A stretch of 64,000 bases of DNA from Nitzschia sp. DOCU1 (taxonomy: Eukaryota > Bacillariophyta > Bacillariophyceae > Bacillariales > Bacillariaceae): positions 3,425,352-3,489,351 of the forward strand of contig OX595988.1 of assembly GCA_951394045.1 (NCBI GenBank), given 5' to 3'. Of this stretch, positions 37,401 to 54,099 are shown piece after piece. The number at the start of each line of letters is the position of its first letter. Positions within the stretch are counted from its first letter, which is position 1. A model generated the notes under the pieces. That model was not told where the DNA came from and searched no databases. It worked only from the letters and a program-made list of their open reading frames with translations. The position numbers and the translations under genes were made by a program.

Positions 37401-37897
37401 ATACCGATCGTAATAGCTCGGCGTATCACCCTTGTTCTCACTGGAGCCCAAATATTTGCATTGAACAAGCCGCCCTCAATCTTATGATGCGAATAAAGGC
37501 GGCGGGGCTACCGAGTCTATGATGATTATTCCGTACCCCTGTGTATTACTTAAGGTGAAAGTACGATAGTACTACGAGGAGTAGTAAGGTCTATTAACTC
37601 CTCCGTATTTTCTATCGATGCTTCGCCCACTGCATGATGTTAGTGCTGCTGACGGGAGAGGGGAATCCCCCCGAGCAAACGACGACAAGCATCACCATGC
37701 TGCATGCATGGTGGTGTCGTCATTTGGGGTCCAAATACGTCGTTCTCCTCGTTCTCTCGAACGAGTAGTAGTAGATGGGATTACAAAGGCCCTCGCTCCA
37801 TGTCGATGTGGTGGTTCGATAGCAAAGGCACAAGACTATCGTTTCTCTGGTAGCTAGCTACCGGTAGCGTAGACGAGGGCAGGGTCATAGCACTCTC

Positions 37898-37922
37898 CAT
37901 CAGGAAAGGGAAAATATGGGGG
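37898..37922 (+). repeat. left terminal inverted repeat of the 8-kb element
   Basis: 25 bp, perfect inverted match to 45868-45892. A further imperfect match (CCCATA) extends about 8 bp inward. Confidence 0.8.
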
Positions 37923-38849
37923 TTCCCATAACTATTCCCCATTTTTCCAATGTCAATAGCCATTTCCCCCGTATCTATAGCCATATCCCCCACTCACTAT
38001 TGCCTTGTCCCCCCAAACTAATCAGGATCCCATTCGTCATTGCTCCCATCCCATTTGGAACCCCATATTCTTTCCCTCACTAATGGTAAGCCCCCATTCC
38101 AATTTCTCCATCTGCCATTCTCAATGCAGCTGCCTTCCCACATGTACTTAACCCCCAATTGGCTTCGAGTTCCGGCATTTTCTAAGTTGCTATACTTCAA
38201 TCCATAAACTATAGCCTCTATCACTTAAGCCCTCATTGATCCTTCAAGTTACAATTATTTACATTTTAATTACATATGCCCCCATGCTTATGGGGTACCA
38301 AAATTCTCCAACCGACCACTTAACAACCGCAACACCATTTAACAAACTGACATCTGCACTTCTATAGCCCAAGGAAACTCCGAGGTTAGAAAGTTCTTTC
38401 CCTTCGGAGAAATAAGGTCCACAACATCATACCAAAGATTACTCAATAACGCGTATTTTTCATCAACTAATTTTTTCCTGCCTATATTGATGTCTTTTGA
38501 GCATACAAATTTAACAAAACGTGGTATATACCACATAATCTTACCCATCCCACCGCTGTTCACTCCCTTCCCAACCATTTCGGCCCCATCTTCCCACACT
38601 TGATTCCAAGCCAATCTTCTTTCCCGCCACAACCCACCACAAAAAATTCACACCATCACCACCATCAACAACAACAACAAAAACAACACTACGGGCACCG
38701 GTCCACTCATCAATGCGAAGCAACCAGTTGCCGATCCTGTTTTTACGGGACCGCCTGGTTGTGTTGAAGAGTCGGACGAGGTGCTGGCGGGTAGCGGAGG
38801 GATCGGTCTGCGTGCACATCGGGCCATTTGGCCCGCTGCGACCTTTCTC

Positions 38850-41462
38850 ATGGCACCCGTCCACTCTTTTTTTAACTCTATGACCACCCCAAGCAATGAC
38901 AGCCCAACCAACGATGGGCTAAGCAACGACAACAATGACGGCGAAAAAGCAAACTACACGCTTAGCAATGACGGTGACCAAGACAACAACAACGAAGGCA
39001 ACGACAACGACGAAGGCAACGACGACAACGACGACGGCGGCAACAACGAAGGCAACGACAGCGATGGCGATGACGACGACGATGGTGATGACGACGACGA
39101 TGGCGATGACGACCACGATGACGATGACGACCACGATGACGAAGAAGACAACGGTGACGAAGAAGACACTCACGACAACGAAGACGACGATGACGACGGG
39201 GATGACAATGGCGGTGGCAAGGAAGAAGTCGTAGATTATAGAGTTTATTATAATAATATAACTCTAATACGCTATGACACTATTAGTGACGAAGGCCACC
39301 AGGAGCCAGCTTCTTCAACGAATTTCAGATGCGTTGGACAAGCAGTTTTCTGGGTCTCGTCCCCCTCCTGTGTGACAAAGCCTTCCCAACCTTCTGCCAC
39401 TTACCTTGGCTTTCCATCCTCCGCCATTGAATGGAAAAAATGCGAAACAACGGAGGCCATCTCGCCAAGCCTTGTCTTGTCCCATTGGAGTACTGAGTAT
39501 GGCACCCTCCTAGCTGTACAGTCTCGCTCCTGGCAAGACCACCCAAGGAACGACAAGTTTGTCTTTGCCATGTTGTTCTGCGAAGACAGCCGTCACCAGC
39601 TAGTTGCCATCAAGCAGACCAACAGGGAAAAGGTAGTGGTTTGGTATGCTGGAGATCTATATGGCGAAGAAATGGTGATCACTAATTTGGATCGTCTAGT
39701 TTACGTCAACCTTGGCTATCTCCACCCGTCGGGTAACCTTGTGAATATCCCCTTCATTCAACACCAAGTGACGATTTTTCACGAGGCTAATCATCTTCAG
39801 AGTGCTCTTGGCGCTAGCTACGTGAACGCCCCACCACCACCAAAGGCTGGTGTCAGAAAAAGAAAAGCCCGAGCCAAGGGTGGTTTTCAACAGAGAAAAA
39901 GAAAAGCGAGGTCCCGTGGACGTGGTGGTTGCCAAAAACGCGCCCTTTTCAGTGGGCAACTGCCAGAGCCTACTCTCACAATTTACGTCATGGCTGGCTC
40001 CCCCCTGGCAAAGAACATAAGCCGTTTCCTGGACAACAACAAAAAACCACGTGTGGCCATTGATGTATATCGAAATCAAAAGACAGCTCATGTGGCGGCA
40101 ATGGAAGAGAGCCAAAGGTTGAATGCTCTCCAGAAAAAGGAGACCAAACCGCAGTCAGCGGCAAGTGTGGCGGCGGCACCGACAATCACCTCTAAAAACG
40201 ACCCCAAGGCATATGTGGTCCCATCGGCGTCACCAACCAATTCCCGGCGTGTCCTTTCAACCCAAGCCCTCCAATCCTTCACCGTGAGAACCTACTACCT
40301 CATTCCTCCTTCGAAGCTAGAAAAAATTCTGAATCTACGAGTGACTGCCGTCGAGTTCGACGAAACGCTCATCGGCAATTCAATGGGATACTTCGAGGTT
40401 GTCGAAGTCCCCCATGATGCACCAGTGCGATTCAGCGTTGTGGAATTCGGGGAGAAAGAAATTTTAATGAGCAGGCCAGGTGTAACCGAGTTTCACGACA
40501 GAAAGCTAGGTTATTTCTACACAGAGACTACCCAAGATTCCAACCTGACCATCCCTGGAGTCACCGTCTCTTTTTGGTCCCCTCATTCATGGAAGACCTT
40601 GGCTGAAGATGCTACAAATAAGTGGACAGTCGAAGAAGTCACAAAGATCCCCAGGTATTTTGGCAAGGGCTTTGGGACTCGAAGCTGTACCCAAAGTCGT
40701 GGGTTCATGATGTTTCATGGTCCCAGGAACTGCAAAAGGCCCCACTCTTCTCCCCATTCAAACTCCAAAACTGCAGAACATGCCGCGAAAGACTACGATC
40801 GCCAAGACTATCGTCTCACTTTGTATTCGAACGGCACAATTCGCAGGAAGCTTCAAGGATGTGCTAACAAGATCCTGGGGTTCGTCCGGGCCTTCAGCCC
40901 ATCTTACTTTGCCCTCACTGGCGAGAAAACTTGCGAGCGAATCATCTGGACCCAGGGCAATGTGGGTGGGCTTTTAGGTTGGTGCAATACCCCCCATATT
41001 GACAGCCGTGACAAGATCCCTTCCCACATGAAGGTCAATGTTGTGCACGCCAAGTACCAGCAGATTCAAAAGCTGTTTGAACTCGGCCTCACCACCACCT
41101 GTGGTTACAACATCGTCGGGGATGTATTGCCGGGGGACAAGCTGGAAGCCAACTTTGTGGTTATGGGGTTTGCTTTACCCCTCACCCACTGCCGTGTACA
41201 CCATTTTCTTGGGTGGACGCATGAACATTTCACAGCTGTGCCCTTTCTCTGCACACCAGACAACGTGTTATTAAAGAATTCCAAAGATACCGGAAGACCA
41301 CCTGTTGTAGTGGCAGCATGGGGCGCCAATGGTGGTTATTCTCATACCACCGCCGCGAAAAAAAAGGCAGAGAAAAAGGCAAAGGCAAGAAGAAAGATGA
41401 ATAAGGTGACAGATGTGGAAGAGGTGGATGTGAACGATAATCCACTATCCGTGACATTTTAG
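38850..41462 (+). CDS. transposon-borne protein with acidic repeats and a possible 2OG-Fe(II) dioxygenase domain
   Basis: This 870-residue frame starts at ATG 38850; the frame is open upstream but without ATG. Residues about 15-130 are an Asp/Asn/Gly/Glu repeat (DDDDDGDDDDDG type). Basic patches follow near 335-370 (RKRKARAKGG, RKRKARSRGRGG) and at the C-terminus (KKKAEKKAKARRK), suggesting nuclear location. The C-terminal third contains GGLLGW, then His716-Ile-Asp718 in NTPHIDSRDK, and 67 residues later VHHFLGWTHEHFTAVPF (His784/His785). This order fits the HxD...H iron triad of 2-oxoglutarate dioxygenases (TET/JBP, prolyl hydroxylases). The Arg that usually binds 2OG about ten residues after the last His seems to be His793. 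I know of no close named homologue; the oxygenase call is inference. It lies 950 bp inside the left end. Confidence 0.5.
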   Translation: MAPVHSFFNSMTTPSNDSPTNDGLSNDNNDGEKANYTLSNDGDQDNNNEGNDNDEGNDDNDDGGNNEGNDSDGDDDDDGDDDDDGDDDHDDDDDHDDEEDNGDEEDTHDNEDDDDDGDDNGGGKEEVVDYRVYYNNITLIRYDTISDEGHQEPASSTNFRCVGQAVFWVSSPSCVTKPSQPSATYLGFPSSAIEWKKCETTEAISPSLVLSHWSTEYGTLLAVQSRSWQDHPRNDKFVFAMLFCEDSRHQLVAIKQTNREKVVVWYAGDLYGEEMVITNLDRLVYVNLGYLHPSGNLVNIPFIQHQVTIFHEANHLQSALGASYVNAPPPPKAGVRKRKARAKGGFQQRKRKARSRGRGGCQKRALFSGQLPEPTLTIYVMAGSPLAKNISRFLDNNKKPRVAIDVYRNQKTAHVAAMEESQRLNALQKKETKPQSAASVAAAPTITSKNDPKAYVVPSASPTNSRRVLSTQALQSFTVRTYYLIPPSKLEKILNLRVTAVEFDETLIGNSMGYFEVVEVPHDAPVRFSVVEFGEKEILMSRPGVTEFHDRKLGYFYTETTQDSNLTIPGVTVSFWSPHSWKTLAEDATNKWTVEEVTKIPRYFGKGFGTRSCTQSRGFMMFHGPRNCKRPHSSPHSNSKTAEHAAKDYDRQDYRLTLYSNGTIRRKLQGCANKILGFVRAFSPSYFALTGEKTCERIIWTQGNVGGLLGWCNTPHIDSRDKIPSHMKVNVVHAKYQQIQKLFELGLTTTCGYNIVGDVLPGDKLEANFVVMGFALPLTHCRVHHFLGWTHEHFTAVPFLCTPDNVLLKNSKDTGRPPVVVAAWGANGGYSHTTAAKKKAEKKAKARRKMNKVTDVEEVDVNDNPLSVTF
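39000..39215 (+). repeat. GAC/GAT-rich acidic-codon microsatellite inside the 870-aa gene
   Basis: Imperfect iterations of GACGACGATGGTGATGAC encode the Asp/Asn/Gly run. Long antisense frames across it are shadows. Confidence 0.8.
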
Positions 41463-42180
41463 TTACCTAATTACTATTAGGCAAACAATGGAAATTTGTT
41501 CTCATCTTTGGTGACCAGTAGGAGGAGCATCAGTAGTAGTACCCCCCTTTGCTGTGTTGTCTCACCCCAGCAAGCGCGCGCTATTGGGCTGACTAGTTGG
41601 ACTTGAGTCTACCAACAAGGTTGATGATGCATATTGGGCTTTATGCTAAAGATTGGGGTTGATTCTACCCAATGGTGGCCCTTGTTACTACAGATGTATA
41701 TTGGGTACATATGATTCGACATGCCCTGCTATTAATGAAGTTGATGCCCCCAATTTGGGTTGATATCCGTGATGACAAATCAGGTTGATCCCCGTCATTG
41801 GGGTTGACGAGAGCCACGCCCCAGTTACTAGAGACGTATACTGGGTACATATGATGCGACGTGCCCTGCTATTATTGAAGTTGACACACCCAATTGGGGT
41901 TGATATCCGCGATGAAAAATTAGGTTGATCCCCATCATTGGGGTTGATGAGAGCCCCCTTGACACTACACTACCTATCTATTGTACAAAGGCTCATACAC
42001 CTGCTGGCGCGCACCAGCAAGTCTCCTCCAGACAACCGTCACCTCATAATATATATATAATGAATAATGTATATAACGGCGTGTCAGCCAACGGAGTTCA
42101 GGTTGATTTGTCTCAATGAGGTTGACTGATGCTTTTTTCTTCACTTCTTTTTCAACTTGATACGGCACCATGGAGGATCC
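41463..42180. repeat. central region of the element with GGTTGAT repeats
   Basis: The convergent 3' ends of the two large genes flank this region. The motif GGTTGA (mostly GGTTGAT) recurs about ten times between 41620 and 42125. Much of it lies in two tandem copies of a ~140-bp unit (about 41657-41806 and 41808-41955) that share TGGGTACATATGAT and GTGATG/GCGATGA blocks. CCCCAAT...GGGTTGAT gives local dyads. Short frames here are not conserved between the two units. Confidence 0.65.
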
Positions 42181-43770
42181 CTATCCTCCCTTCCAGCTAG
42201 ATACTTCGTCTAGCCTCTCACCACAAGCACGACACGCTTCACAGTCCATGGCCTTGGCATCACCACAGATGAATGCAATAGGCAATCGGAGATAGACTAG
42301 CCGAGCCTCGTTTCCAATGAGAACAACTCTGGGCTCCTTGCGTAACTCTTGTTGTACCAGCTGAATCTGTTCAAAAATCTTGGCCTGGCACAGGTGGAAG
42401 TTCCTGACAGTGCGACCCTTTCCCTCTCGTGGTATGTTTTCAGCCCTCTTTTGTGCTTTGGTTCTTTTATCAAAGTTTGGGATATAACCAATGGTCCTGA
42501 CACACTTCCGGCGGTACCGAAGGTTGTGTTTCAAAATGCCAAATGCCAGTAAGACTGGTGTCACTGATTGACGTTGGTTCAAGCTTGTGCCAATTTCATC
42601 CCAGTAGATGATAAGAGGGATAACCAAATCAAGTCCAGGCTGAAGTGATTCACTCTGTATATAGTCCTGCATCGCCTTTGCTGACAACACTTCACCTGGC
42701 TGCGACTCGGCAAGGTTGGCTTGGTTCCACCTATCAGCAGGATTAACCACAAGGTTGTGTAGATTAGATATTGTTGGAAGGTCTCGCAGAAGTGCATTCA
42801 CGGCATCCATGACAGAAAACACTGTAATGTTGGTGGACTGTCTGGGTAGCCGGTTATGAGACATGTCTTGTGGTCGGGAGGACTCTATGGCAATTGGAAC
42901 AGTCACTGGGGGGCTCATTGGGGATAGGTTGCAAAATTTGGAATAGAGAGAGCTGGAGGAGTAGGATAGGAAAGCATCAGAGGAGAGGTCCACCCCAGCA
43001 GCAGCTCCCTTCCTTAGTTCACTCATAAGCTGGTCAAATAGATAGCGAGGAACACTTGGGTGCCGACAGATGCGGTAAATACGAAGAAGGAGTCTCTCTT
43101 CAGGAGTTCCTAAGTATGATACATTAGCTGATTGATCATGCAGATCTTCCAGAGATAGTGTGGATGTAGGGGCACCAAGGACCTGGAGCTCTGCTGGGGT
43201 GAACTGGCGTGAATGACAAGTAGGGCCTGGCAGCGCAGAGGCTTCACACTGAGGATTTTGCAGAGTAGATGGGAATAGTGTTGGTCTCAACAGTGTGGTG
43301 ATGCCGGGGGGTGCTGCAGAGCAATAATCTGGGGATGAGTCATTCTGAAATATGATGTAGGAGCCAGACTCTAGTGCCGAGAGATCATCTTCACGCAAAC
43401 CCAATGCTGCTTCTGGAGGATTAGAATGGCTGTGTGTAGCAGGTAGTAGTTGGCTTGCCACACGTATAGACCTCCTAGGTGGAGGGTTGGATTGGGTGGA
43501 GGGTGAGGGAAGGTGCTCTCCTAGGTTGGCTTGTGACCGTCTGGCAGCAGCAGGTGACTGTTGGTAGACATAAAGAACAGGGGGTGGGGACATTGAAAGT
43601 CGACCAGCATGAGCCCTTGATGGTGGGCAGTTAGAATCGTCATCACCTTGAAAGAACGACGATGGCTCACCAGCCTCGCTTTCATCATCCTGTTGTGATT
43701 GCGCAGTTTCAGAGGAGGTTACACGTAGCCGCGTTCTTTTCAGGGTGGCATTAGAGGGAGTTCGGGGCAT
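42181..43770 (-). CDS. Plavaka-like transposase, N-terminal part
   Basis: A 529-residue protein starting MPRTPSNATLKRTRLRV at 43770. The first ~250 residues are a Ser/Pro/Asp-rich disordered region. From about 370 the pattern LDLVIPLIIYWDE, then PVLLAFGIL, RYRRKCVRTIGYIP, FHLCQAKIFEQI and PIAFICGDAKAMDCEACRAC matches the order of motifs in Plavaka-type transposase proteins: an Ile-Pro-[IL]-[IVF]-x-[YS]-[WS]-D start, then GYIP, H-x-C, and GD followed by a Cys pair. Plavaka proteins normally continue far beyond this Cys pair, but here a stop follows within 15 residues and the downstream minus strand is the GGTTGAT repeat region. It is therefore either truncated or a stand-alone module. No DDE catalytic set is visible. 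Confidence 0.5.
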   Translation of the reverse strand: MPRTPSNATLKRTRLRVTSSETAQSQQDDESEAGEPSSFFQGDDDSNCPPSRAHAGRLSMSPPPVLYVYQQSPAAARRSQANLGEHLPSPSTQSNPPPRRSIRVASQLLPATHSHSNPPEAALGLREDDLSALESGSYIIFQNDSSPDYCSAAPPGITTLLRPTLFPSTLQNPQCEASALPGPTCHSRQFTPAELQVLGAPTSTLSLEDLHDQSANVSYLGTPEERLLLRIYRICRHPSVPRYLFDQLMSELRKGAAAGVDLSSDAFLSYSSSSLYSKFCNLSPMSPPVTVPIAIESSRPQDMSHNRLPRQSTNITVFSVMDAVNALLRDLPTISNLHNLVVNPADRWNQANLAESQPGEVLSAKAMQDYIQSESLQPGLDLVIPLIIYWDEIGTSLNQRQSVTPVLLAFGILKHNLRYRRKCVRTIGYIPNFDKRTKAQKRAENIPREGKGRTVRNFHLCQAKIFEQIQLVQQELRKEPRVVLIGNEARLVYLRLPIAFICGDAKAMDCEACRACGERLDEVSSWKGG

Positions 43771-44242
43771 TGGTAGACAGGAACTGGAATAATCTTGTTC
43801 ACAGACTCGAGGTGGCAGGAAGACAATGTCAATGATTGATATGTCACAGCATGTTTAAATGAGCTTTGAGAGACGTTAGGATTTGTGAAAACTACCAGGA
43901 CTGAAATGTGGCTAGAAACCAACGGTCAAAGGAAGCAGTGGCATTTGTCTGGATATTGCCAGGGGTTTGATTAGAATGACTCTTGTCGTGGGAATGTGCC
44001 GGCTGACGTGGTTTGATTAGAATGACTCTAGTGATGCGTCAGGTCTGCTGGCGTGGTTTTGAATAACTGGGGGACAGCAGCATATGAATTTGAATGATTA
44101 GACCTATATCTCGACACATGAAAGAGCGTGCCAGCATACTTAAAACAAACCAATTTGAATGGGAGATGAATGGGTGGGAAAAAAGTCGCAACCTTGCACC
44201 AGCTAGAAGGACATTGCCACAAAACAAGGAAGTAGAGGGACC
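43771..44242. promoter_or_regulatory. bidirectional intergenic region with a repeated motif
   Basis: The only divergent gene pair in the element is separated by 472 bp. GGTTTGATTAGAATGACTCT occurs at about 43964-43983 and again at 44010-44029, 46 bp apart. This could be a binding site shared by both promoters. No other recognised signal. Confidence 0.35.
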
Positions 44243-45542
44243 ATGTCAAGTGGAGGTGGCTCCTCTTTGGAGGAGGGTGCAGTTGGTGCCGCCGGTAGCA
44301 GAGGAGGGTTTGATTTGGAAGGATTCTTGAGCAGGCTTCCGCCAGAGCAGAGTAGTGAGTTGAGGAGGGTGTTAAGTGGAGGAGTTGGTAGCAGTGCTGG
44401 GAGCAGGGAGGCACCTGTCGGTGAAGTTGGTGCGAGGATGGGGGGGGTGGTTAGTGTCGCCTCCTCTATAACGGTGGCAGAGAAAGAGGACAGTAAAATC
44501 TTCACTGATCAGATGAAGAAGGTGTTCAGGCAGGTGAAGTTCATTGATGAGCGTGACATGCAACATGGAAAGCTGTTCTATGAGAAGGTAGTGGAGGCAA
44601 TGGGGGGTACAGTGGTAGGTACCGATGAGTGGTACAGAAAAAAGGGAGGTCTGAGAGCTAGGGCTTCTGCTAAGATTGTTGATCTAAGAGGCAATGTAAC
44701 AAATCGGCTGAAGGAGGCATTTTTAGGTAAGAGGCCACAAGGGGGGAATGTGTAATATCCACCTATTGTAACTAACAAGGAAGAATTGAAGCTCATTACC
44801 ATGTGACAGAGGCAGAAGTTAGCAGTGATACAGAGGGGAGCATTCTTGAGATGTTCAAGCCCAGTGACTTGTGGGAGACTAGAAAGGATCCAGAGCTGTT
44901 CAAGCTCCTGTGCAGGCAGTATTTTTCTGCTGTTGTTTTCGGAAGGAAGGGGTCCTATGGTAGGAGAATGGCAAATGACCTGGTAAGCCAGGTATTGAAC
45001 CCGTCTGATGAGGCATTTGTGTACCTGGTTTTGGAAAACAACTATGCGTATTGGAAAACATTAGGGAGGGAAATGTAAGTGTGAGATGGAAGAAAGTGCT
45101 ATTTTGGAGCGAAGATGATTGGATGAACTAACAATATGTGTGTGGTTGTTGGTGGTGTAGGATGGATAGTGGAAAAGTTCTTTCTATGAACATGAAGGAC
45201 CGTGTTGTCCAACCAAAGTATACCCATGCAAGGAATAGCAACAACATGAGTTGGAATCGCGCTGGGAAATTACGTTATGTGGAGTTCCTGAAAATGGTAA
45301 TTGAAGATAGGAACAGGGAAGGTGCAAAGGAGCTTGAGGTGGAGGTTAGGGGGGAATGGCAGATTGCTAATGGAGGGAGGCGCAGACGAGATAGGCTGCA
45401 AGGGGAGTCTCAGGAGGAAGAGGAGTTCTCCATTCCCATTGTGGATGACAATGGTAATCCAGTAGTCATTGAGGAGGTAACTGGCCATTCATTGAGTGAA
45501 ACAGAGGGAGCCTTGGAAGTGGGGCGAGTAATGGGTGTTTAG
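44243..45542 (+). CDS. three-exon accessory protein of the 8-kb element, function unknown
   Basis: Exons 44243-44726, 44810-45074 and 45161-45542 (introns 83 and 86 bp, donors GTAAGA and GTAAGT, acceptors ACAG and GTAG) join in frame to 376 residues. The N-terminus is Gly/Ser/Val-rich. From about 95 there is a helical, basic domain (SKIFTDQMKKVFRQVKFIDE, WYRKKGGLRARASAK), then FKLLCRQYFSAVVFGRKGSY, the segment LVSQVLNPSDEAFVYLVLEN-NYAYW in exon 2, and in exon 3 a basic stretch (ARNSNNMSWNRAGKLRYVEF) before an acidic tail. The cross-exon continuity supports the model. I recognise no domain; position inside the terminal repeats suggests a transposition helper, DNA-binding or structural role. 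Confidence 0.55.
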
Positions 45543-45867
45543 TGAATCTGTTGTAAATTGATCTAGCATTCCCTTAGAGGACTATGTATTTCTAATTTAG
45601 GAGGGCTGTAGTGATTGCAGAAGAAGTTTGAAATGAGGCGTACCATTTGTTCATTGGTTATTTGTTGCCTGATGGAGGGTGTGCGCTAGAATAGGTGTTG
45701 CCATTTCTGAATGGTAGGTAAATAGTAAATGGGATGGCAATTTGTTAAGGGGGGGAGGCAATATCTACTGGTTAGGGGGTTGGGTAATATTGAGGGATAT
45801 AATAATGGGTTGTGACACCTCCCCACGGTGATGGCATTTTGGGGGGTGCAGGGGATATATATGGGTC

Positions 45868-45892
45868 CCCCCATATTTTCCCTTTCCTGATG
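45868..45892 (-). repeat. right terminal inverted repeat of the 8-kb element
   Basis: 25 bp, exact reverse complement of 37898-37922, with a sixth C on its inner side. Confidence 0.8.
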
Positions 45893-46600
45893 TCGACGTG
45901 GGATAATGAATGTCCGACGAGATGCAACCACGAATCGAATCAATCAAAAGATATGGTAAACACTTTGCAGAACTACGGTAGGTATTGAAGATGTTAAATA
46001 TCTAGTTCTCATTGTGAGGCTTATGAAGTGTGTCGAATCGACCAGCTCACATATGATTCATCAAACATTAAATACGACCCCGACGAGGGGATAGAGCCTT
46101 CGGCGCCTTCGAGATTGTTCGGAGAAATCAACAGCCTTCACTACCACTATGATGACTGGCGAGCTACCGGTAGGTAATTGCCTTCTGCGGAGCCGTAGTT
46201 TTCATAGGATATTGCCACGATATCGCTCGCCAATTTTTTCTGTATTTATGTAGTTGCGCTGTGATGTCGAATTGACCAGGTCATAATTCGCGGCACCATT
46301 AAACATGACGAGAACAAGGGGAAGAGTTGGCAATCGAATGTTGAAAGTTTAAATATTCTTGCCTTCGGAGCCTTTTGTCCGGACGAAACGTTTTCGACCG
46401 AGCTCCGCTTACGTAGCGGCTTCTCCATTACAAGACATAATACCTCAATACCCAGCTCCATCTACCGTACCTTTCGATGCTGCGAAAACCCGCGAAGCCA
46501 AGGATTCCCCTCAGTCTCACAATTTTGGAAAGGAAAGCTGCTACAGGCTCACAATTTCGGAAAGATCGCACCAGGCTACCGTTAACAATATAAAATCATC
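45893..46600. other. intergenic with a weak duplicated segment
   Basis: GTCGAAT[C/T]GACCAG and ATTAAA[T/C]A recur about 240 bp apart (46035 and 46267), suggesting an old duplication. No gene is seen. Confidence 0.35.
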
Positions 46601-48980: not shown

Positions 48981-50115
48981 TCCGCTGCCATAGTCTTCAG
49001 TCCATCAACTAAAGGTCATGACAACAGATCTTCTCGCATCGCTAGCGTCGTCGCTATTCGTTGCAACCAGCAAAACCAATGGAGGGTATTGTTTGAGCTC
49101 GAGGCCTTTGTTCGCTGGTCTCGTTTGTCTCTCAACTCGCCATCAGCATGGTTGCGTGGTCATTGTCGATTGCGAAAGTCCCGTTTCATTCCTGCGCGCC
49201 TGGTGCTGTGTAGCAAACGCACTCAAGACGAAGTACGACAGAGACGACTCAATCGATCAATGACGCGAGAGCACCAGTCGTCGCGGCGAAAAGCAAGCTA
49301 TCGATGCATTATGAAACTTGAGGCATCTCTTCAGAGATCAACGACAGTTATATCCGTTTATGGAAAATCTATTTGCTACTTTGTTTGTCTTTGAATAGAA
49401 TGCTTGTATTGTTGCGAAACAATGGGATGTGGTGTTGAGGACTTGTCATTGACGGTTGCAGGTTGCAGGGGCCGCCGCGGCGCAGCAGACGCCGCGATTA
49501 GTTTGCTTAATCTCTATATATTTCAATTCACTTTTCTGGAACAGGCAGCAGACAGCATCAATTACAAAATTTGATCTCTCTCTTCGGAGAACCCCCAACG
49601 TTGCCTGTTCGATTCTTCTTTTGCTTGATTTCTTCTTTTTGCATTGCGACCTTTTGCAAGTCTTGGGGGCTACTACCGGTAGTGTGCACGTTTCGGATAA
49701 TTCCAGCCAGACGCTATGAATCCAAGACTCGGACAGAGTGTAGTAATTATTGCCAGACGCGATTGGTCTAACCATGCATCATGCTGCGGAGTATTCTATG
49801 CTTCTTCAATCAAACACACTCTTAGTTTTAATACACTCTCATAAAATCTCGAAACCAGAAGAATAAAACAATGAAACAAACTCCTAGTTTTAATACACTC
49901 TCATAAAATCTCGAAACGAGAAGAATAAAACACAACTAGACGAATCAGTGGTGGCTTCCCGCGACGTTGACTATCACACTCATCGACTGGGTGAGAACCA
50001 CGGGATGCCCGAGTACACCACCTTTGGCGTTCTTGGATCGGACGTATTGGCACTTTCCCAAATGGTCCGAGGTGGAAATCGCCTACCACTGGTAGATAAG
50101 ATTTTGCAAGACGAC
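48981..50115 (+). repeat. duplicated promoter/5' block, copy 1 (parent 51275-52293)
   Basis: Matches the region upstream of and including the first ~50 codons of the DUF2828 gene: AGATCTTCTCGCATCGCTAG, GTCGCTATTCGTTGCAACCA, GTTTGCTTAATCT and GTTTTAATACACTCTCATAA. Identity is high but with many small indels. Copy 1 also has an internal ~53-bp duplication (TAGTTTTAATACACTCTC at 49828 and again at 49891). Confidence 0.85.
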
Positions 50116-51189
50116 GCGCCACCACAAAGGCACCACCAGCAGCATAACCATCACCATGCTCCGTCTCAACCGGTATCATTAGAATCGGACGAGAATAGCC
50201 AGCATGCAAGTCTTCTTACGGCTCCGCTAGCTTGGGTTCAGAAGAGTCGAGAACGCAGACGCCGTTTTCTTTTGCAACAGCAAGCAGAAGAGCAATTGAG
50301 AAAGATCGCGGAAGCGGAATGGTTAAATCCACACCACGGACTATCGATAACCACCACAAGAAGACATTGCGCTCACCACAACTCGGGTTACAACATGGGA
50401 GGCGATCATGCCGATGACGAATTCAAAGTAGGGACGCAGCATTTATCCAAAAGTGGGGAAGGCATGACGGCCAAACTCGACTTTGACTTTCTCGAAGACG
50501 ACGACGAGGACGAATTTCTCGTCCCGACAGTAAGAATCCATCCAGAAACTCGTCTTTTGAAAGAAGCTGAATTGAATGATAGTGTGGACGATTCACCAAA
50601 CAAGGCCGACTTCAAAGCACCAGCCTATATTTTGACTCCCGAGCAAATGCATCATATTGCAAAATATGTTCTGCCGCGACCGATAGCCTATCGTCAATGG
50701 CGGCGCCTATATAGTTTGAGCCGGGATGGTGATTCTTTTGATGGCTGTTTGCGAATCATTTCGGAAGTGGCACGAACGTTAATGGTGGTACGAACCACGC
50801 AAGGTGCTGTCTTTGGTGGATACGCTGATTCTCCTTGGGGGCCGCAAGGAAATGCACGCTTTTATGGAAGTGCTGAAGCTTGTCTGTTTTCTGTCAAAGA
50901 TCCCAAAAAGAGGCACGAGGGTCTCAAAAGCCCCAAGAATAATCTGTTGAATGTCTATCATTGGACCGGGAAGAATAGATACATCCAGCTCTGCGACACG
51001 TCCTCTAGCAAAATGCTAGCGTTTGGTGGTGGTGGTTCGGATGGTGCCTTTGGTCTTTGTGTACAAGAAGACTTTCAGTCTGGGTCGACGGGGCCTTGTG
51101 ATACCTTTGACAATGCCCCTCTCTGCGATCAAGAAGTGTTTGAGATAGTGGATGTTGAATTCTGGGAATTTTTGACGGGGGTATTTTAG
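50005..51189 (+). CDS. chimeric TLDc-domain protein with DUF2828-derived N-terminus
   Basis: The frame encodes 394 residues from ATG 50005. Residues 1-36 (MPEYTTFGVLGSDVLALSQM, then VDKILQ) match the DUF2828 protein at 52129 after its residue 20. Then the sequence changes abruptly to a His/Gln-rich linker (QQHNHHHAP), a basic helix (VQKSRERRRRFLLQQ), an acidic stretch (FLEDDDEDEF) and a TLDc domain from about 210 to the end (WRRLYSLSRDGDSF, TLMVVRTTQGAVFGGYAD, FSVKDP, VFEIVDVEFWEF). TLDc proteins are linked to oxidative-stress protection and V-ATPase regulation. The codon equivalent to the parent ATG (52129) is GTG here, so translation probably starts at the next in-frame ATG. Fusion boundary at about 50115. 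Confidence 0.75.
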   Translation: MPEYTTFGVLGSDVLALSQMVRGGNRLPLVDKILQDDAPPQRHHQQHNHHHAPSQPVSLESDENSQHASLLTAPLAWVQKSRERRRRFLLQQQAEEQLRKIAEAEWLNPHHGLSITTTRRHCAHHNSGYNMGGDHADDEFKVGTQHLSKSGEGMTAKLDFDFLEDDDEDEFLVPTVRIHPETRLLKEAELNDSVDDSPNKADFKAPAYILTPEQMHHIAKYVLPRPIAYRQWRRLYSLSRDGDSFDGCLRIISEVARTLMVVRTTQGAVFGGYADSPWGPQGNARFYGSAEACLFSVKDPKKRHEGLKSPKNNLLNVYHWTGKNRYIQLCDTSSSKMLAFGGGGSDGAFGLCVQEDFQSGSTGPCDTFDNAPLCDQEVFEIVDVEFWEFLTGVF

Positions 51190-52128: not shown

Positions 52129-54099
52129 ATGGCTTTCCGCAACACAGTCAACGCCGACTATCACACTCATCGACTGGGTGAGAACGGGATGCCCGAGTAC
52201 ACCACCTTCGGTGTCGGATCGGACGTATTGGCACTTTCCCAGATGGTCCGAGGTGGAAATCCCCTACCACTGGTAGATAAGATTTTGCAAGAAGGGAGCA
52301 CCCAGGATGTCGTGGACCTGATGGTGCTGGTGTTTGCTACGCGAAACACCCGAGGAGGAAAGGGAGAAAAGAAGCTGGCTTATGACATGTTTCTCAGGGT
52401 GTACTGCAAGGCCTTGCCGCAGACAGCCCTGGCACTGATGATGCTCTTTCCGCACTTTGGCTACTGGAAGGATCTGCTTCAATTGATCAAACTGATCAAG
52501 GAAAAGCCCTGTGTGCCTCAAGCGAAGAAAGCAGCCTTTTTCAAGGCAGCCACGAAGATCATGTCCGACCAGTTGGCTAAGTATATGAGCGAACTTGAGC
52601 TGTGGAAGGAAACCAGCAACTGCAAGCTCCCGTCCATTAGTCTTCTTGCCAAATGGCTTCCTCGTGAGAATGCCGCCCTGGACAAAAGTACGGGCGTAGT
52701 GGACGCTCTGGCAAAGGGACTAATGATGTCTGCCGCGGTGGCTGGAGGCAGCTCTACTGGCTGGCAATCCAAAGCAAAGCGAGTATACCGAAAGACCGTT
52801 TCCCAGCTGACGGCACAGTTGGCTCTCCCAGAAGTATTGCTTGCTGCCCAACGTGAGGAGGAGATTGACTTTGGCAGAGTCGCCTCGCGAGCTACCATGC
52901 TGTACCGCCGCGTGTTCCTGAACCTAGACAAGAAGGGTTTGGCCACTCGATCTGAGAACCCAAAGCGGGTCGCCTTGGCGGAGCGCTTTCTGGAGCATAC
53001 CATCGAGGAGGGTCTCAAGGGATCGCAGCTAATGCCTCATGAGATTGTGGCCAAGATTATAGGAGGAAGCATTAGCGAGGTCGAGGAGATTGTTCTCGAT
53101 GCCCAATGGAAGTCGTTGCGCGAGAGCGTGTTGGAGCAGATCAAGAGTGCACAAGAAGGCGATGCAGGAATGGAGCCGACGCGACTGGTTCCCCTTTCGG
53201 ATGTTTCAGGCTCGATGTGTGGCACGCCTATGGATGTAAGTATTGCACTTGGGATTCTCCTTTCCGAGATCACGCACCCCGCATTTCGTGATATGGTCAT
53301 GACGTTCGAAACAAACCCACGATGGCACCGCCTGGATCCGTCGGCAACGATTGTTAAGAAGGTCAGATGCCTAGCGAGTGCTCCATGGGGAGGGTCAACA
53401 GACTTTGTTGCGGCGTATCGCCTCGTTTTGGACGTAGCACGAAAGCACCGCCTGAAGAGGGAGGAGGTTCCAAACCTGATTGTGTTTTCGGATATGCAAT
53501 TCAACGAAGCGGATGGCTCCGACGAAGCGACGATTCACGAGGTGATCAAGCGCGAGTTCGAGAAGACTGCATCATTTCTCGGTTGGGAGGACAAGGAGCC
53601 CACGGCGATGGTTTACTGGAACCTGAGAAACACTGGTGGCCATCCTGTGAGTCGGGATACGGAGGGCGCCGTAATGCTTTCGGGATTCAGCCCTTCACTC
53701 CTCAAGCTGGTGATGAGCGGCATGGCGCTTGAGGAACAGGATACTGAGGTTGTTGAGGCGGACGGTACTGTGTCCAAAGTGAAGGTCAAGGTGACGCCCG
53801 GAGTGGTCCTTCGAAAGATGCTTGATGACGAGCTGTACGATCCAGTGCGGGCTATTCTTGGATCTAGCACTGAGGGCAAGCTGAAAGAGTTTGAGATCGT
53901 TCCGATCGAGGCCAAGGAAGACGACTTTCCCTTGTCGAAACAATTCAAATACAAAGAAACTCCTCGCATACTTGGCAATTTTGTCACTCTTAAGATCTCT
54001 AGCAATGGCACCAGATCACAAGTTGGTTCTCCACGGGATCATTTGTCGTTGCACTCTCTTTCGCAGGAGTTGAAATCTCCATCATGTCATCATCCGTAG
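52129..54099 (+). CDS. DUF2828 (TROVE/vWA-like) protein
   Basis: A 656-residue protein from ATG 52129. N-terminal part: DVVDLMVLVFATRNTRGGKGEK followed by helical repeats (FPHFGYWKDLLQLI), as in DUF2828 proteins. C-terminal von Willebrand A part: the MIDAS motif DVSGSM at 358-363, then a Thr in the expected region, FSDMQFNEADG and a final MDDEL-type helix. The family occurs in plants, fungi, protists and large DNA viruses and resembles the RNA-binding Ro60/TROVE plus vWA arrangement; its molecular role is not established. The last ~25 codons overlap the antisense histone-fold-like remnant and look unconserved, so the end may be altered. The first ~50 codons and upstream DNA are duplicated at 49.0-50.1 kb. 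Confidence 0.85.
   Translation: MAFRNTVNADYHTHRLGENGMPEYTTFGVGSDVLALSQMVRGGNPLPLVDKILQEGSTQDVVDLMVLVFATRNTRGGKGEKKLAYDMFLRVYCKALPQTALALMMLFPHFGYWKDLLQLIKLIKEKPCVPQAKKAAFFKAATKIMSDQLAKYMSELELWKETSNCKLPSISLLAKWLPRENAALDKSTGVVDALAKGLMMSAAVAGGSSTGWQSKAKRVYRKTVSQLTAQLALPEVLLAAQREEEIDFGRVASRATMLYRRVFLNLDKKGLATRSENPKRVALAERFLEHTIEEGLKGSQLMPHEIVAKIIGGSISEVEEIVLDAQWKSLRESVLEQIKSAQEGDAGMEPTRLVPLSDVSGSMCGTPMDVSIALGILLSEITHPAFRDMVMTFETNPRWHRLDPSATIVKKVRCLASAPWGGSTDFVAAYRLVLDVARKHRLKREEVPNLIVFSDMQFNEADGSDEATIHEVIKREFEKTASFLGWEDKEPTAMVYWNLRNTGGHPVSRDTEGAVMLSGFSPSLLKLVMSGMALEEQDTEVVEADGTVSKVKVKVTPGVVLRKMLDDELYDPVRAILGSSTEGKLKEFEIVPIEAKEDDFPLSKQFKYKETPRILGNFVTLKISSNGTRSQVGSPRDHLSLHSLSQELKSPSCHHP

Follow-up and report, generated by a model that had tools for sequence, protein, structure and literature searches.

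To which group of transposons does an element of about 8 kb in the diatom Nitzschia sp. DOCU1 belong, and how would it move? The element occupies positions 37898-45892 of the window, a 64,000-nucleotide stretch of contig OX595988.1, and an initial annotation had described three genes between its ends, one of them spliced, in an architecture that could not be named. The three genes are indeed present (ORF1, ORF2 on the minus strand and ORF3 in three exons), and the interval is a copy of a DNA transposon with terminal inverted repeats (TIRs), flanked by a 2-bp target site duplication, TC. Its ends, its duplication and its transposase fit the PlavakaB signature of the published description (PMC12730594), and the architecture can therefore be named. 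With a probability of about 0.8, the element is a non-autonomous PlavakaB-type cut-and-paste copy (EnSpm/CACTA-Mirage-Chapaev-Transib, or CMCT, group) that is moved in trans and in which the cargo has been swapped.

Ends and target site duplication

37896-37897, no strand: left copy of the target site duplication TC (left flank ends CTC)
37898-37922, plus strand: left TIR, 25 bp, starting CATCAGG (inverted-repeat comparison, genome end search)
37898-38161, plus strand: left end common to five relatives of 13-16.5 kb (69-75% identity over 264 bp)
45708-45892, plus strand: right end common to large and small family members (79-88% identity)
45868-45892, minus strand: right TIR, ending CCTGATG (inverted-repeat comparison, genome end search)
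45893-45894, no strand: right copy of the target site duplication TC (right flank starts TCG)

The 25-bp TIRs are perfect, with 37898-37922 being the exact reverse complement of 45868-45892. The kinship that had also been proposed for the subterminal DNA of the two ends reaches to about 42 bp (a 42-nt inverted match, 88% identical), but not beyond, where the next block is at background (5 of 20 positions identical). The 20-bp core of the TIR, allowed at most three mismatches, matches the host genome (52.08 Mb in 63 contigs) at 24 places in forward and 21 in reverse orientation, while the same core read backwards as a control matches none in either direction. Thirteen convergent pairs, spaced 1.4-16.5 kb apart, account for 26 of these 45 matches, and the termini CATCAGG..CCTGATG are found in the window copy (37898, 45892) and across the 13 paired copies. 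A matching 2-bp target duplication flanks all 13 (TG, TC, TT, TT, TT, TG, TG, GA, GG, TT, GA, CA and TA; one is also compatible with 3 bp), a figure that covers the paired copies, the remaining 19 of the 45 matches being neither paired nor tested. Several copies with the same ends and a consistent duplication, as the initial annotation had asked for, are thus at hand. Ends of the form 5'-CATCA..TGATG-3' and a target duplication of 2 or 3 bp constitute the PlavakaB signature in the published description (PMC12730594).

Twelve of the 13 insertions count as independent, because two pairs on contig C11 (at 1.99 and 2.01 Mb) occupy a duplicated site, in which the left flanks agree at 99% over the 813 bases next to the elements and the right flanks at 99.9% over 1.5 kb. 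These two insertions, C11:1994349-1998966 (4.6 kb) and C11:2014602-2030087 (15.5 kb), have near-identical flanks and inner ends and are of unequal size. Small elements at different loci share 89-99% identity over their terminal 1.5 kb, with right ends at 95.6-99%, and the DIOX gene of the family (see below) is 100% identical at two loci; the ends of this family have therefore moved recently. No frame of 130 codons was found in the eight halves of four small elements. In young elements of 4-6 kb (contigs C2, C3, C4, C11 and C13), the match to the transposase covers only about the first 115 residues, at 58-63% identity.

Larger relatives and their transposase

42181-43770, minus strand: ORF2, a truncated PlavakaB transposase of 529 aa that keeps the first D (YWDEIG), the second D (GDAKAMD) and CEAC
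44243-44726, plus strand: ORF3 exon 1, from the ATG (spliced-frame analysis)
44792-45074, plus strand: ORF3 exon 2, with the acceptor used in the relatives (intron 1 is 44727-44791, GT..AG, frame open)
45161-45542, plus strand: ORF3 exon 3 (intron 2 is 45075-45160, GT..AG)
41678-41955, plus strand: tandem duplication between ORF1 and ORF2 (138-nt copies 140 nt apart, 88% identical)

Both ORF2 and ORF3 recur between the same ends in five larger elements (C11:1949699-1963385, C5:1432645-1447898, C5:96956-113481, C4:2113839-2126849 and C14:1029357-1043802; 13-16.5 kb), which have a common gene order of DIOX (minus), B (plus), transposase (minus) and ORF3 (plus). The transposase frame spans 1030-1263 codons in four of the five, and all five transposases are homologous to window ORF2 at 67-70% identity. 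Three of them (C5:1432645, C5:96956 and C14) contain the full set of motifs YWDEIG, GDAKAMD, CEAC, PHDLMH and WGERM; the C4 piece examined stops short of WGERM, and in C11 the break in the frame precedes that motif. The catalytic residues were assigned by motif (D, D, C(2)C, H(3)H, E), and their order agrees with the layout of the CMCT group, for which the source gives D, D, C(2)C, H(3-4)H, E, with the C(2)C and H(3-4)H motifs between the second D and the last E (PMC12730594).

Direct comparison with the Pfam Plavaka family gave 18.2-21.6 bits for four frames (E 1.4e-4 to 1.6e-3) and 19.3 for the window frame, all below the cut-off of 26.3 bits. Eight other loci in the genome exceed this cut-off, and seven of the eight overlap matches of the transposase studied here (E 3e-18 to 5.6e-9); the link to Plavaka is therefore indirect but firm. 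In protein-database searches, each of which scored only about 8000 candidates, one transposase homologue was found beyond this genome record, at 100% rounded identity. Within the family, the ratio of nonsynonymous to synonymous substitution rates (dN/dS) is 0.11-0.26 for the transposase, 0.11 for B, 0.09-0.19 for ORF3 and 0.21-0.27 for DIOX, values that sum both lineages of each comparison.

Pairing of transposons with base-modifying oxygenases has been described in fungi, and the initial annotation had accordingly suggested an algal branch of the theme in which KDZ transposons (Kyakuja, Dileera, Zisupton) carry TET/JBP genes. A gene with an HxD...H pattern does adjoin a transposase gene inside a TIR element here, and an oxygenase aboard a cut-and-paste transposon is a likeness to KDZ elements. 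The duplications are nevertheless 2 bp, as opposed to 8 bp for Zisupton and 7 bp for Kyakuja, and the transposase is unrelated to theirs, being related to Plavaka, which has been removed from KDZ (PMC12730594). KDZ membership was rejected on these two grounds, leaving this explanation with next to no probability.

A truncated copy with a probably exchanged interior

The window copy shares with the large copies the 264-bp left end, the front of the transposase, ORF3 and the right end. While the gene reported as Plavaka-like does encode a Plavaka-related transposase, it is truncated in the window: homology stops at residue 540 of 1191 (68% identity), short of H(3)H and the last E, both of which are absent. 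The window copy should therefore move only in trans. The copy also lacks DIOX, B and the transposase tail, in whose place the 952-codon ORF1 lies. ORF3 encodes a spliced orphan product of 382 aa, for which automated splicing picked an alternative AG acceptor that starts exon 2 at 44780; its best Pfam row, Porphobil_deam (E 0.0027), lies below the cut-off.

These features suggest how the element may have arisen and moved. The DDE transposase of the long relatives would bind the CATCAGGAAAGGG ends, excise the element and join it to staggered host DNA, giving rise to the 2-bp duplication. DIOX, B and the transposase tail would have given way to 3-4 kb of DNA carrying ORF1, a member of a gene family scattered over other parts of the genome, possibly through faulty gap repair that copied foreign DNA.

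Several points weigh against this account. The host genome yielded no second close copy of the window element, which genome comparison places as a diverged single copy; because of this, its own mobility is deduced only from its ends and duplication. An empty site, which would have been further support, was not found with the left flank, which is single-copy in the genome (the right flank was not searched). The transposase frame of the large C11 copy is broken after 739 codons and its ORF3 has a stop, and two of eight close DIOX frames contain a stop. The truncated ORF2 protein could itself play a regulatory role, and ORF1 may be a working part of the element and not filler, given its dN/dS of 0.18-0.19 against its relative on C13 and 0.34 against that on C4 (synonymous sites are saturated against C8).

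Part of this evidence would also suit a self-sufficient element with an architecture of its own, in which ORF1 is a functional gene of the lineage and the short ORF2 either suffices or forms a complete enzyme together with another protein. The element has perfect ends and an intact duplication, ORF1 retains its full frame at the low ratio just given, and dN/dS between the window and the large copies is 0.16-0.19 for ORF2 and 0.09-0.19 for ORF3. These ratios may, however, mostly reflect the time before ORF2 was truncated, no second copy of the ORF1 arrangement was found in the genome, and the H(3)H and final catalytic acid seen in three long relatives are missing from ORF2. Self-sufficiency is thus unlikely, and a non-autonomous copy moved in trans is preferred.

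Origin of ORF1

38297-38386, plus strand: short segment with a counterpart on contig C9 (75% identity), which lies there upstream of a partial ORF1-family copy
38685-38855, plus strand: dispersed repeat of about 170 bp found upstream of ORF1-family genes (75-82% identity)
38850-41462, plus strand: ORF1, orphan cargo gene (open frame from 38604, 952 codons; first in-frame ATG at 38850)

The large copies contain nothing that corresponds to ORF1 and its surroundings (about 38.3-41.5 kb), and the insert foreign to the family would begin between 38161 and 38297. ORF1 relatives were found on C13 (main pieces at 53-61% identity, with stops), at C4:2429892 (41%), C8:1809567 (63%) and C9:193362 (52%), and at three places on C8, C25 and C34 that resemble one another (36%). 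None lies inside any of the 13 end pairs, and that on C13 lies beyond the closest PlavakaB end, at a distance of 3.3 kb. The objection set against the element, a common dispersed motif or genes that never share the ends, fails for ORF2 and ORF3; for ORF1, no relative turned up between such ends. Frames adjoining the relatives contain a SWIM domain (above cut-off) and RNaseH-like and Pif1-like matches (both below cut-off) and are read, from sequence, as probable Mutator-like element (MULE) and helicase genes; with such neighbors, the ORF1 gene family is therefore a dispersed one. The repeat of about 170 bp also occurs on C1, C3, C4, C8, C9, C13, C15, C25 and C34 and is better conserved than the coding part; it is perhaps not coding, because its dN/dS is about 1 (one comparison, 50 codons).

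The MULE-like and Pif1-like neighbors, together with the upstream repeat that the insert brings with it, raise the alternative that the ORF1 stretch is a separate nested element, or that the assembly has joined it to a PlavakaB copy. Among the repeats listed, no convincing inverted repeat surrounds the insert, and simple nesting would not remove the transposase tail, B and DIOX. We regard nesting or misjoining as very unlikely and retain a PlavakaB copy with exchanged cargo.

The dioxygenase-like character originally given to ORF1 is putative. The HxD...H pattern is there (HxD at residues 798-800 and HEH at 873-875, in open-frame numbering), HxD is kept in the C13 and C9 fragments and the distal HEH in the C8 fragment, but nothing else supports an oxygenase. 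The protein has an acidic repeat near its N-terminus and a basic patch. It gave no match of weight in Pfam, PHROG, PDB or the protein databases, no homologue outside this genome record at E 0.01 among the roughly 8000 candidates scored, and no kinship with DIOX or B by profile comparison, for which the profiles were shallow; a single structure model was unusable (predicted local distance difference test (pLDDT) score 28.5). Neither B nor DIOX matched PHROG, and IMG/VR gave no confirmed relative of either ORF1 or DIOX. A viral origin was rejected, the sole viral family listed when the ORFs of the element were scanned with Pfam being Nairo_nucleo (E 0.04, ORF3 exon 1), far below cut-off.

DIOX and B of the large copies

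The better candidate for an oxygenase is DIOX of the larger siblings and not ORF1 of the window, as judged from sequence and a structure model. Pairing of a Plavaka element with an oxygenase-like gene in an alga, as first envisaged, accordingly stands for the siblings but not for the window's own ORF1. DIOX shows the HxD..H..R arrangement of the 2-oxoglutarate (2OG)-Fe(II) double-stranded beta-helix, with H197-x-D199, H268 and R282 identical in all four aligned sequences; in database row P0003, N replaces the D. Its model is of low confidence (pLDDT 49.5, Foldseek TM-scores 0.26-0.42), and the 50 rows that Foldseek and VIA-align list consist entirely of 2OG oxygenases and their close relatives, with matches to prolyl-hydroxylase, AlkB and PhyH-like enzymes. 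TET, JBP and CMD1 were not among the listed structure matches of this weak model; kinship with them may still exist. Outside this genome record, two DIOX homologues were found (77% and 29%), the latter being the protein of a second family described below. B is an orphan protein of 1226 aa present in all five large copies. In full elements, DIOX probably helps escape silencing, a role proposed by analogy only, and B and ORF3 may be accessory proteins.

A second family with CATCA-type ends

A DIOX relative (33% identity) is present in seven copies, 100% identical over 1.1 kb, and in one partial copy. The border of this second family reads CTCTGATG, and a pattern search for its ends gave 11 forward and 10 reverse matches with at most three mismatches (control, 2 and 3). 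Fifteen end places with no or one mismatch make up seven pairs and one single, and a 2-bp duplication flanks five of the seven pairs, the other two having none. This transposon family, with CATCAGAGGGCCGG ends, comprises C5:523668-534332 and six further end pairs. The C5 copy encodes a relative of B (53.5 bits; tblastn E 1e-15), and DIOX and B have therefore stayed together in two families whose end motifs are related. Between the two families, DIOX has a dN/dS of 0.44, near saturation. The other frames of the second family gave no significant match to ORF3 or the transposase (1.6 and 1.3 bits). On C9, 155 bp separate an ORF1-family fragment from a CATCAGAGGGC-type end (C9:193207, 2 mismatches), and ORF1 relatives may thus also reside in the second family.

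A bolder proposal, which we hold to be doubtful, is that diatom PlavakaB elements have a lineage-specific anti-silencing module (DIOX and B), independent of fungal TET and present in two CATCA-type families, and that the window copy swapped in the apparently unrelated oxygenase-like ORF1 from a pool travelling among transposon types. If true, different oxygenases would be exchangeable counter-silencing cargo.

Relation to known systems and significance

PlavakaB elements of Agaricomycetes share with the diatom family the CATCA..TGATG ends, the 2-bp duplication and a transposase with C(2)C and H(3)H, and some families contain an oxygenase gene (PMC12730594). The hosts differ, fungi there and a diatom here, and the fungal PE-type oxygenase has HxE where the diatom DIOX has HxD (PMC12730594). 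The diatom large copies add two orphan genes, B and ORF3, and the window copy is without DIOX. The EnSpm-Plavaka elements of Auxenochlorella are likewise algal, but the host is a green alga, and they are mentioned once, with no cargo described in that passage (PMC12633428). The giant repeats of the protist Amoebidium combine a non-fungal Plavaka transposase, cargo genes and a methylated genome; they differ in forming clusters of up to 50 kb with tyrosine recombinases, and the excerpt makes no mention of an oxygenase (PMC11244446). In the available portions of the open-licence literature on Plavaka and diatoms, no treatment of a diatom Plavaka element was found. What appears new is PlavakaB in a diatom, paired with an oxygenase-like DIOX, as predicted from sequence; kinship with TET is not part of this claim.

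Elsewhere in the window, two host frames (49948-51189 and 52129-54099) are nearly alike in their first 50 residues (DYHTHRLGEN...) and then diverge, reflecting either partial gene duplication or exon reuse. In the genome, the silicon transporter family has 18 matches, all above the curated cut-off, as compared to one match, below it, among 14 control genomes, a result that marks the host as a diatom. The C5-cytosine methyltransferase family has seven host matches, two of them adjacent, and also matches in 10 of the 14 control genomes.

A diatom PlavakaB family with a conserved oxygenase-like DIOX, in a methyltransferase-bearing host, suggests that the pairing of transposons with oxygenases may have arisen more than once. 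The family is a place to ask whether oxygenase cargo erases silencing marks.

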